Shown one piece after another: positions 58,029 to 60,864 of a stretch of 64,000 nucleotides of DNA. The stretch is from NCBI GenBank assembly GCA_009392815.1, contig VFFS01000055.1:1-64000 (forward strand). Reading direction: 5' to 3'. Source of the DNA: SAR202 cluster bacterium. Lineage in GTDB: Bacteria; Chloroflexota; Dehalococcoidia; Lucifugimonadales; UBA826. A program made the position numbers and the translations under genes. Positions within the stretch are counted from its first letter, which is position 1, and each line of letters begins with the position of its first letter. A model generated the notes under the pieces. That model was not told where the DNA came from. It made no database searches and saw nothing but the letters and a program-made list of their open reading frames with translations.

Positions 58029-58907
58029 ATGACCACAACCCGTAGGCTCCCCGTGTGGCTAAAGGTTAAGATGCCTGGCGGCCCAAATTATTCAAACCTG
58101 AAGAAGTTGATGCGTCAGGAAGGGTTACATACTGTTTGCGAAGAGGCGAGATGCCCAAATATTGGAGAATGCTGGGAAAGGGAAACGGCCACCTTCATGA
58201 TACTTGGTGACACCTGCACTCGAGCCTGTACATATTGTGCCGTTAAAACAGGCAAACCAACGGGTTTGGATTTGGAAGAACCCTTGAGACTAGCTCAGAC
58301 GGTCGAAAAACTTCAGCTCAAGTACGCTGTCATAACTTCCGTGAATAGGGACGATCTCGCAGATGGAGGGGCATTCATATTCTCTCAATGCATCACTCAG
58401 ATAAAAAAACGAACGCCACGTTGCAAGGTGGAAGTTTTGACTCCTGACTTCCAAGGCGACATCAAAGCCCTAAAAAGTGTAATAGATTCAGGGCCGGATA
58501 CATTCAATCACAACATTGAGACTGTAAGAAGGGTATTTCCTCGTATCAGAGCAAAAGGCGACTATGACTTATCTTTAGATGTTTTAGCTAATGCAAAGCT
58601 CATAAATCCAGAATGCGTGACCAAGTCTGGCATGATGGTTGGATTGGGAGAAACGTTTGAGGAAATTATAGACACTATGAAGGACTTGAGAAGGGTCAAT
58701 TGCGACTTAATGACAATTGGTCAGTATCTTCGACCTTCTGTCAAACACTCCCCAATTTCGAAATGGTACACGCCACAAGAGTTTGAAGAGCTAAAGGACG
58801 AAGGAGAGAACCTGGGATTCAAACATATAGCCTCTGGACCATTGGTAAGAAGCTCATACCACGCCGATGAACAACACACCGCAGCAACCCTACTTCCCAC
58901 AAACTGA
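58029..58907 (+). CDS. lipA: Lipoyl synthase
   Basis: CEEARCPNIGECW, FMILGDTCTRACTYCAV radical-SAM motif. Confidence 0.97.
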   Translation: MTTTRRLPVWLKVKMPGGPNYSNLKKLMRQEGLHTVCEEARCPNIGECWERETATFMILGDTCTRACTYCAVKTGKPTGLDLEEPLRLAQTVEKLQLKYAVITSVNRDDLADGGAFIFSQCITQIKKRTPRCKVEVLTPDFQGDIKALKSVIDSGPDTFNHNIETVRRVFPRIRAKGDYDLSLDVLANAKLINPECVTKSGMMVGLGETFEEIIDTMKDLRRVNCDLMTIGQYLRPSVKHSPISKWYTPQEFEELKDEGENLGFKHIASGPLVRSSYHADEQHTAATLLPTN

Positions 58908-58958: not shown

Positions 58959-59102
58959 TCAATCTGATGACGGAAGCTTTCTCGGCTGCTGAAGTTCCAT
59001 TTCCGAATCGCAGCACTGTACTATTCCATCGCCAGCTTTAGTACACAACACGGTACTGCCACAGCTATCACATTCATATCTTCTACCCAATTGATTTGAC
59101 AT
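58959..59102 (-). CDS. Desulforedoxin-like microprotein (47 aa): MSNQLGRRYECDSCGSTVLCTKAGDGIVQCCDSEMELQQPRKLPSSD
   Basis: Not in ORF track (<60 aa). ATG with upstream AGGAAG; C-X2-C-X15-CC spacing identical to classical desulforedoxin. Confidence 0.8.
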   Translation of the reverse strand: MSNQLGRRYECDSCGSTVLCTKAGDGIVQCCDSEMELQQPRKLPSSD

Positions 59103-59133
59103 CTACAACTTCCTTTCTGTGGTTTAGGTTCAC

Positions 59134-59250
59134 CTACTTTTTACTCATCGGCTCCCCGCAACATTCGATGGTCCCATCCGCACCGCGTGTAACAACAAAT
59201 TCTGACCCACATTGTCCACATGAGTACCGTTTACCTGTTTCATTAGCCAA
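59134..59250 (-). CDS. Desulforedoxin-like microprotein (38 aa): MANETGKRYSCGQCGSEFVVTRGADGTIECCGEPMSKK
   Basis: Not in ORF track. TTG start preceded by GAGGTGA at good spacing; C-X2-C-X15-CC and N-terminal MANE as in Dx. Confidence 0.82.
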   Translation of the reverse strand: MANETGKRYSCGQCGSEFVVTRGADGTIECCGEPMSKK

Positions 59251-59378
59251 TTCAATCACCTCTAATCATCCGACATATAAAATAGTAAAACACATCATCT
59301 CTCAATAAATCAGAATTATAAAAAAGCTATCAAGCATGGTCAACGACACCTCAAAACCACAATAAATAACTCTTCATG

Positions 59379-60239
59379 TCAAAGATCCTCAATGACGGCC
59401 TGTGCCGATTCATAATCTCTTCGGCCGCCTTGAAATATCGGTGGCACCAGATAAAAATAGTTGATACCAATTTCGAGGTATCTATGGATCATCTCTAGTG
59501 CGATCTCGTATCCAGAATTTCCGAGGTCTAACTCTTTAGTAATATGGTCGGGAACATTAGCAAAAGAAATGCTTCCTTTTGACATAATCTGAATACCCCA
59601 AATGATCGGAATAGGCATCTCTGACATCCGCCTTTCCTGGTATTCCTGCAGAAATTTATGTGCTGCATCTGGATCGAAATTTGGTTGGGCTATCAAAAAA
59701 TCGGAGCCGGAGCGAATTTTATTATCCGCCAGAGACATTTCCGAACACCATTTTCGAGATATGTCTAAGGTAGCACCGACGCAAAATTGTGTTGGGTCTG
59801 TCAGACTACGGCCCGTAAAATCGATTCGATTGTTCATTTTTCTTACGGAACGTATAAACGCCGTGGGAGTAAATCCTTCGACAGGTTTATCAGTACCACA
59901 TCCAGAATTATTGAAATTATCGCCTTTCACGACTACCAAGTTCCTGAGACCCATAATGTGCGCGCCTAGCAACGTAGTTTGCATCGCGGTCTTGTTCATA
60001 TCTCTAGTCACCATAGTGAATAAAGCGGGAGTTTTGATGTTGCTTTCTATCCACTGTGCGATGGAGGGAGAACTAGCTCTGACCGTCCTTCCAGGATTAG
60101 CAGCCACAAAAAACATGTCGGGAGTAACCGAGGAAAGATCACTCAAGGCTTCGGTATTTCCACTTCTAGGAGGGGATACGTCGCAAACAATAAAAGGTCT
60201 TCGTCTATTTTTGGCAACTAATTCAACCAATGTAGACAT
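59379..60239 (-). CDS. Methylenetetrahydrofolate reductase-like (MetF family) protein
   Basis: TIM-barrel pattern: VCDVSPPRSGN, ALFTMVTRDMNKTAMQTTLLGAHIMGLRNLVVVKGD, DFLIAQPNFD, IPIIWGIQIM. Confidence 0.78.
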   Translation of the reverse strand: MSTLVELVAKNRRRPFIVCDVSPPRSGNTEALSDLSSVTPDMFFVAANPGRTVRASSPSIAQWIESNIKTPALFTMVTRDMNKTAMQTTLLGAHIMGLRNLVVVKGDNFNNSGCGTDKPVEGFTPTAFIRSVRKMNNRIDFTGRSLTDPTQFCVGATLDISRKWCSEMSLADNKIRSGSDFLIAQPNFDPDAAHKFLQEYQERRMSEMPIPIIWGIQIMSKGSISFANVPDHITKELDLGNSGYEIALEMIHRYLEIGINYFYLVPPIFQGGRRDYESAQAVIEDL

Positions 60240-60363: not shown

Positions 60364-60381
60364 GGCCGGTTATTTCCAGCC
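60364..60381. repeat. GGCCGG-ttattt-CCAGCC hairpin with the zinc-ribbon gene's stop codon in the loop (one G-U pair in RNA)
   Basis: Direct reading. Confidence 0.55.
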
Positions 60382-60864
60382 TAAAATACCCTCGGGATTG
60401 GGACAAAGAGAAACCCTATGTCCGGAGGTGCACTTATATCGCTCTTCCCTAATCTCTCGCCTTTTGCCAGACAAAGAAGACTGCGACATCCCTGAGCCAC
60501 AGAAAGGGCAACTGACTCCAAACACTGCACGATTACGCACCCTGTAAACTTTTACATGGGTCAGGACTTCGGTTAAAGCAGGAAACTCTCCGATATATCT
60601 CAGTACATAGCGGGTTCCCGTACCGATCACACTGTTTTTAGTTTGTTCAGGACGCTGAACTGTGTACTCATAGTCCACATACCCGCAACTCAAACATTCG
60701 GCTTCCTCAAAGTTTACAGCTAACCGGGCAGAACATTTTGGGCAGTGACTCTTATTAGTTTTTGGCTTTCCTGATGTTCCAGGTAACCCAGGTGTTACCC
60801 TCCTCGGAACGATAGGAACTCTTGGTTTAGCCGGCGCAAATGGGTTAGAAGTCTGAACAACCAT
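60370..60864 (-). CDS. Zinc-ribbon protein, uncharacterised
   Basis: Paired cysteine motifs CPKCSARL...CLSCGYVDYEY and CPFCGSGM...CTSGHRVSLC. Confidence 0.7.
   Translation of the reverse strand: MVVQTSNPFAPAKPRVPIVPRRVTPGLPGTSGKPKTNKSHCPKCSARLAVNFEEAECLSCGYVDYEYTVQRPEQTKNSVIGTGTRYVLRYIGEFPALTEVLTHVKVYRVRNRAVFGVSCPFCGSGMSQSSLSGKRREIREERYKCTSGHRVSLCPNPEGILGWK

Follow-up and report, generated by a model that had tools for sequence, protein, structure and literature searches.

A tail-bearing pair of desulforedoxin-type microproteins in Dehalococcoidia and its genomic link to an acyl-CoA ligase

Two microprotein genes that lie in tandem in a SAR202 genome, both skipped by the gene caller, encode a desulforedoxin-type (Dx) pair that is conserved across the Dehalococcoidia. 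We propose that their products, Dx1 and Dx2, form an obligate pair serving as the accessory (docking) partner of a class I adenylate-forming acyl-CoA ligase, a reading to which we give a probability of roughly 0.55. The pair often loses its metal site, never loses its C-terminal tail and travels with the ligase, which suggests an unrecognised ligase helper rather than an electron carrier.

Both genes lie on the minus strand of the window, the 64,000-nucleotide stretch of contig VFFS01000055.1 that was analysed. Dx1 (59134..59250), recognised by ORF reading, a match to the Pfam family PF06397 and its orthologue family, is a 38 aa desulforedoxin-type microprotein that reads (M/TTG)ANETGKRYSCGQCGSEFVVTRGADGTIECCGEPMSKK from 59250 to 59134. 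Dx2 (58959..59102), recognised by ORF reading and PF06397, is a 47 aa paralogue with an ATG start, a fifth cysteine (C20) and an LPSSD tail, and reads MSNQLGRRYECDSCGSTVLCTKAGDGIVQCCDSEMELQQPRKLPSSD from 59102 to 58959. A preliminary description, made from the letters alone, had reported two ORFs at these coordinates, separated by 31 nt, each with a Shine-Dalgarno-like sequence and the spacing C-X2-C-X15-C-C, and each of these particulars reads as it had claimed.

The start of Dx1 is TTG rather than ATG, with a GTG at 59259 as the in-frame alternative. This start is well supported, because nearly all relatives, across families, carry ATG, GTG or TTG at the same position. Read from the sequence, a Shine-Dalgarno-like AGAGGTG (59257..59263, minus strand) lies 6 nt before the TTG, and family members carry GAGGTG at the same place; for Dx2, AAGGAAG (59109..59115, minus strand) precedes the ATG. 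A sigma-70-like promoter, TTGACC-17-TATAAT (59315..59343, minus strand), lies ~65 nt upstream of the Dx1 start and agrees with the consensus at 11 of 12 positions, a consensus match only, in a region where 1.7 sites with at least 9 matches are expected by chance. With this promoter before Dx1, the pair can be transcribed as an independent unit, the MTHFR-like gene lying upstream of it.

Dx1 and Dx2 are confirmed as real genes of the Dx type arranged in tandem. Against PF06397 (Desulfoferrod_N), Dx1 scores 32.3 bits, above the cut-off of 23, and Dx2 scores 22.1 bits, just below it, which bears out the family that the preliminary description had named; these are the only two places in the window genome that match the family. 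Dx1 and Dx2 share 40% identity, and their closest credible solved relatives are desulforedoxin and desulfoferrodoxin. Judged by pooled pN/pS within the window's family (0.078 for Dx1 and 0.085 for Dx2), a check of the frame that had been called for at the outset, the pair is under strong purifying selection. These PF06397 scores, the mutual identity, pN/pS values near 0.08 and the recurrence of the tandem in dozens of families set Dx1 and Dx2 far from chance ORFs. The NCBIfam model TIGR00319 (desulf_FeS4) gives 19.7 and 17.8 bits for the two window ORFs, both under its cut-off of 36.05. Searches of the Dx family against phages gave no match.

The tandem extends through dozens of families of Dehalococcoidia/SAR202 (Chloroflexota). 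Among 60 relatives, PF06397 finds matches in 32 and a tailored profile finds Dx2 in 42. Class-wide, 159 of 198 sampled genomes match the Dx2 profile, a count that includes a minority of plain, single Dx proteins that lack the tail; in a sample of the phylum the figure is 30 of 301, only seven of these lying outside the class. A scan for the tail pattern with one genome per species returned 76 loci, one of them labelled HRbin23 and the others Chloroflexota. Among the first 31 loci, wherever Dx1 could be checked it is followed immediately 3' by Dx2 in the same orientation; the exception to tandem order is genome G036, which carries the two genes on separate contigs.

The surroundings of the pair vary from lineage to lineage. 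In the window it is flanked by lipA (lipoyl synthase, 58029..58907, plus strand), a convergent neighbour, and by a same-strand MTHFR-like gene upstream (59379..60239, minus strand), both named by Pfam/NCBIfam. The preliminary description had treated lipA-Dx-Dx-MTHFR as a neighbourhood to be followed through related genomes. That setting recurs in the window's family and several others; elsewhere the pair sits beside lexA, bc-complex, thioredoxin/luciferase-like, Rieske/cytochrome c, CoA-ligase or CoA-metabolism genes. Because neighbourhoods vary in this way and the pair persists in many other settings, lipA/MTHFR reflects local synteny and was rejected as functional context. LexA, aldolase, PrmC and thioredoxin-type neighbours were set aside too, being recurrent but lineage-bound and convergent, or of no consistent role, as was an Fe-S_biosyn gene 3' of the pair, found in one family only.

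Several of these neighbours deserve mention in their own right. The MTHFR-like protein matches PF02219 and falls far under the NCBIfam equivalog cut-offs; it may be an atypical MTHFR. Upstream of it, a 164 aa gene (60370-60864, minus strand) carries two zinc-ribbon-like motifs, matches no family above cut-off in Pfam and NCBIfam scans, and is syntenic with MTHFR throughout the window's family and in others. In seven other families of Dehalococcoidia (L299, L301, L302, L303, L309, L310, L314) the pair lies directly downstream of cytochrome c-type genes on the same strand, mostly with a Rieske gene further upstream. An Amidohydro_3 (YtcJ-like) gene follows the pair at L279-L281, L297, L298 and L310, in other Chloroflexota classes and some Dehalococcoidia.

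Another recurrent neighbour is an acyl-CoA ligase. Two rounds of tblastn with Dx2 against plasmids recovered homologues in which the two halves are fused, in Rhodococcus and Streptomyces in the first round, with Mycobacterium branderi, Sphingomonas and Sphingobium added in the second. At 15 of the 16 plasmid loci examined, the fused Dx gene adjoins, on its own strand, a class I adenylate-forming/fatty acid-CoA ligase of a single type, which stands before or after it and mostly 2-60 nt away. The sole fused-Dx plasmid gene with no adjoining ligase (L323, on a Rhodococcus gordoniae plasmid) has FAD-dependent oxidoreductases and an aminotransferase as neighbours. Five of six loci from other Chloroflexota classes have the ligase immediately before Dx1-Dx2, and an Amidohydro_3 gene often follows the pair. 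One Dehalococcoidia genome, G065, carries five ligase/Dx modules that are paralogous to one another (L373-L377); three run in the order ligase-Dx1-Dx2, with gaps of ~10-25 nt. Altogether a same-strand ligase matching one profile adjoins the Dx genes at 25 loci (15 on plasmids, five in other Chloroflexota and five in G065). G065 as a whole (5.6 Mb; L373-L379) holds about seven Dx pairs and seven partner-type ligase copies, an expansion of the whole module.

The ligase also co-occurs with the pair where the two are apart. With a profile built from 14 adjacent ligases, genomes of the window's order show a distinct orthologue at 425-555 bits, compared with background ligases at 354 bits or less. 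The orthologue of the window genome scores 516 bits and lies on another contig (G000:C58:43891-45432); it adjoins genes that look molybdenum-hydroxylase-like, a putative naming read from the sequence and not profile-based. Across the order, 39 genomes have both pair and ligase, three only Dx, two only the ligase and 16 neither, so that both are present in 39 of the 44 having either; most of the five genomes that disagree are incomplete (55-91%). With families collapsed, the tallies for both, Dx only, ligase only and neither are 26/0/1/13 (p ~1e-9); the class sample, once shared genomes are removed, gives 113/24/14/39 (p ~6e-13). Kinship is handled in these p values by the family collapse only. 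Some of the 24 class-sample genomes with Dx2 and no ligase above cut-off are likely to be ligase misses, because only seven candidates per genome were scored.

This pattern could also arise if Dx1 and Dx2 were a zinc-ribbon-like pair that had a structural role and some unrelated partner, such as the ribosome or RNA polymerase, and shared presence in metabolically versatile lineages accounted for the association with the ligase. Such a role would suit most Dehalococcoidia pairs, which stand alone with their own promoter and no adjoining ligase, and the weak zinc-ribbon side matches in the Pfam scan. It would not lead one to expect the same ligase type beside the Dx genes in three phyla and five times within one genome, and the genomes that have neither pair nor ligase include large ones, of 2.6-3.1 Mb. 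We consider it the least probable of the explanations weighed here.

What never changes in the pair is the end of Dx2. All 73 distinct Dx2 sequences terminate in [LVI]PS[SA]D, and the plasmid homologues from Actinomycetota and Pseudomonadota all keep the slightly looser [LVI]P[SA][SA]D. The extra cysteine that the preliminary description had singled out in Dx2 is a poorer marker: common as it is, it is Val or Ala in some homologues, and the tail takes its place as the invariant feature.

An invariant end of this kind recalls the LysW/ArgW amino-group carriers, which combine a small metal-binding beta domain and a conserved acidic C-terminal tail with an ATP-dependent carboxylate-activating enzyme. 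By analogy, the ligase might adenylate either an acyl group or the very carboxylate at the C-terminus of Dx2, with Dx as acceptor or carrier and its -SSD/-SAD/-ASD end recognised or modified, whether in a LysW-like manner or as in another C-terminal-tail carrier. The same genomic linkage to a carboxylate-activating enzyme would be expected, the invariant end sits on a tail modelled as flexible at low confidence (pLDDT ~68-70), and Dx1 marginally matches the LysW profile (E 0.069, a lead only). Against this, no single tail serine is fully invariant (PSSD, PSAD and PASD all occur), and no dedicated downstream enzymes of a carrier pathway were found; the plasmid neighbours, acyl-CoA dehydrogenases among them, resemble ordinary CoA-ester catabolism. 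The two systems share the small metal-binding beta domain and the conserved acidic tail; they differ in fold family, in ligase family and in the tail itself, which is EDWGE in LysW. We regard a carrier role as unlikely, if the foremost of the alternatives.

The metal site, unlike the tail, is lost again and again. The preliminary description had expected the four cysteines to be conserved, and this holds for ~80 of 104 loci, where both halves keep their ligands; in other lineages they are gone from one or both halves. At eight loci Dx2 lacks CXXC while Dx1 keeps its cysteines, 14 loci are fused with ligands in neither half, and one is fused with ligands in Dx2 only (L119, where an ambiguous base makes a cysteine appear missing, was not counted as a loss). 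The fourth ligand of Dx2 orthologues may be Cys, His, Asp or Asn, turning CC into CH, CD or CN. The metal-free fusions are single ORFs of ~100 aa. One fused protein from outside the class (L178 and L284) is metal-free in its first half and keeps Cys4 in its second; L284, with only its Dx1 half metal-free, is a separate case from the other fusions.

The fused metal-free proteins have no significant Pfam or NCBIfam match, and align by profile with both Dx1 (hhalign E 2.5e-12) and Dx2 (E 3.7e-20). None of the 14 genomes with this form retains a PF06397 match, and several fused genes stand beside lipA or in another syntenic position just where the pair would be, so the fused forms evidently replace it. 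On a recA tree at least five changes are required to account for the fused state, which leaves a single vertical origin unsupported, and in a Dx tree, built on few columns that include the ligand positions, most fused forms group together. Lateral replacement is thus as admissible as parallel loss. The preliminary description had read the tandem as a heterodimer or as two partners. Joint action of the two products is very probable, because they are fused in many relatives; from the same architecture we infer that the unfused halves touch as a heterodimer.

Structure models are consistent with a fold that outlasts its metal. A tethered, Cys-bearing Dx1-Dx2 model from AF2 (relative L101 with its natural stop read through, a modelling device) reached pLDDT 82 and pTM 0.71 and matched desulforedoxin 1dxg with TM 0.97 at 0.4 A. 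The natural metal-free fusion was modelled with pLDDT 89.8 and pTM 0.79, its domain matching 1dxg with TM 0.88 at 1.3 A. Both models were built from shallow alignments of 16-18 rows, and the TM values describe the match of the domain, not the placement of the halves; a fold of only 36 residues keeps the Foldseek E-values weak. Within these models the desulforedoxin fold is retained after metal loss.

A heterodimeric FeS4 carrier of the rubredoxin type, passing electrons to or from a flavin or acyl-CoA oxidoreductase, would account for the Cys4 spacing, for the near-identity of the fold to desulforedoxin, for the acyl-CoA dehydrogenases near the plasmid loci and for the Rieske/cytochrome c neighbours in seven families, and would fit the absence of a rubredoxin domain from the 30 nearest genomes. 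It sits poorly with the loss of ligands, in many lineages and at shared loci, from one half or from both, with fold and tail kept, and with the frequent use of His, Asp or Asn as fourth ligand. Centre II of superoxide reductase (PF01880) is likewise missing from the window genome and 29 relatives (0/30), and the window ORFs end after the Dx domain; superoxide detoxification was rejected on these grounds. The redox role envisaged at the outset is thus weakened by the many orthologues in which all ligands are gone: repeated ligand loss leaves electron transfer disfavoured, less so for Cys-bearing members, and doubtful as an account of the family.

We return to the proposal of a ligase partner, against which it counts that most Dehalococcoidia have no ligase adjoining the pair and that seven families have Rieske/cytochrome c genes there instead. 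Dx1 and Dx2 would be halves of one unit, most likely a heterodimer resembling the desulforedoxin dimer, and that unit a small accessory subunit of the acyl-CoA ligase. The Cys4 (or Cys3-His/Asp/Asn) site would mainly stabilise the tiny beta-fold, and direct packing could substitute for metal once the halves are fused. The flexible Dx2 tail, [LVI]P[SA][SA]D-COOH, would dock on the ligase and tune or enable its adenylation/thioesterification cycle, in the manner of MbtH-like proteins with NRPS adenylation domains. Those proteins are partners of such domains in the complexes listed in PMC11253843. The likeness is a functional analogy, in that both are small, beta-rich proteins whose genes lie next to that of an adenylate-forming enzyme: sequence and fold are unrelated, Pfam and NCBIfam scans gave no match to the MbtH family, and the candidate partner of Dx, a stand-alone acyl-CoA ligase, is proposed from genomic linkage. 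Taken more broadly, we see an even chance that a cross-phylum family of split and fused desulforedoxin-fold proteins is the dedicated partner of one ligase clade, possibly as a tail-borne carrier or activator, a redox fold having become a metal-optional accessory.

Desulforedoxin of Desulfovibrio gigas (PDB 1dxg/1cfw) shares with the pair its fold, its size (~36-47 aa) and, in most members, C-X2-C-X15-CC. It is one homodimer, whereas here two diverged paralogues stand in tandem, Dx2 has an invariant tail, ligands are often lost, an acyl-CoA ligase is linked and the lineages are mostly aerobic. The desulfoferrodoxin N-terminal domain (PF06397/TIGR00319) is likewise close by Pfam score, but centre II is neither attached to the Dx pair nor present in nearby genomes, and the NCBIfam cut-off is not reached. 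A search of mostly open literature found nothing linking desulforedoxin with Chloroflexi, SAR202 or an acyl-CoA ligase. The fold is known already; the tandem and fused arrangement, the invariant tail, the recurrent loss of metal and the link to the ligase appear not to have been described before.

The family offers a natural series of a metalloprotein fold shedding its metal, from Cys4+Cys4 through Cys4+none to fused and metal-free, with the tail unchanged. To our knowledge, acyl-CoA ligases (FadD-like, class I adenylate-forming) are usually regarded as enzymes that work alone, and a small partner would have been overlooked because its genes are only 38 and 47 codons long. If the proposal is true, such a conserved partner would add a new layer to the activation of fatty acids and of aromatic and steroid-type acids, relevant to the abundant SAR202 bacteria of the dark ocean and to cultured degraders such as Rhodococcus and Sphingobium.
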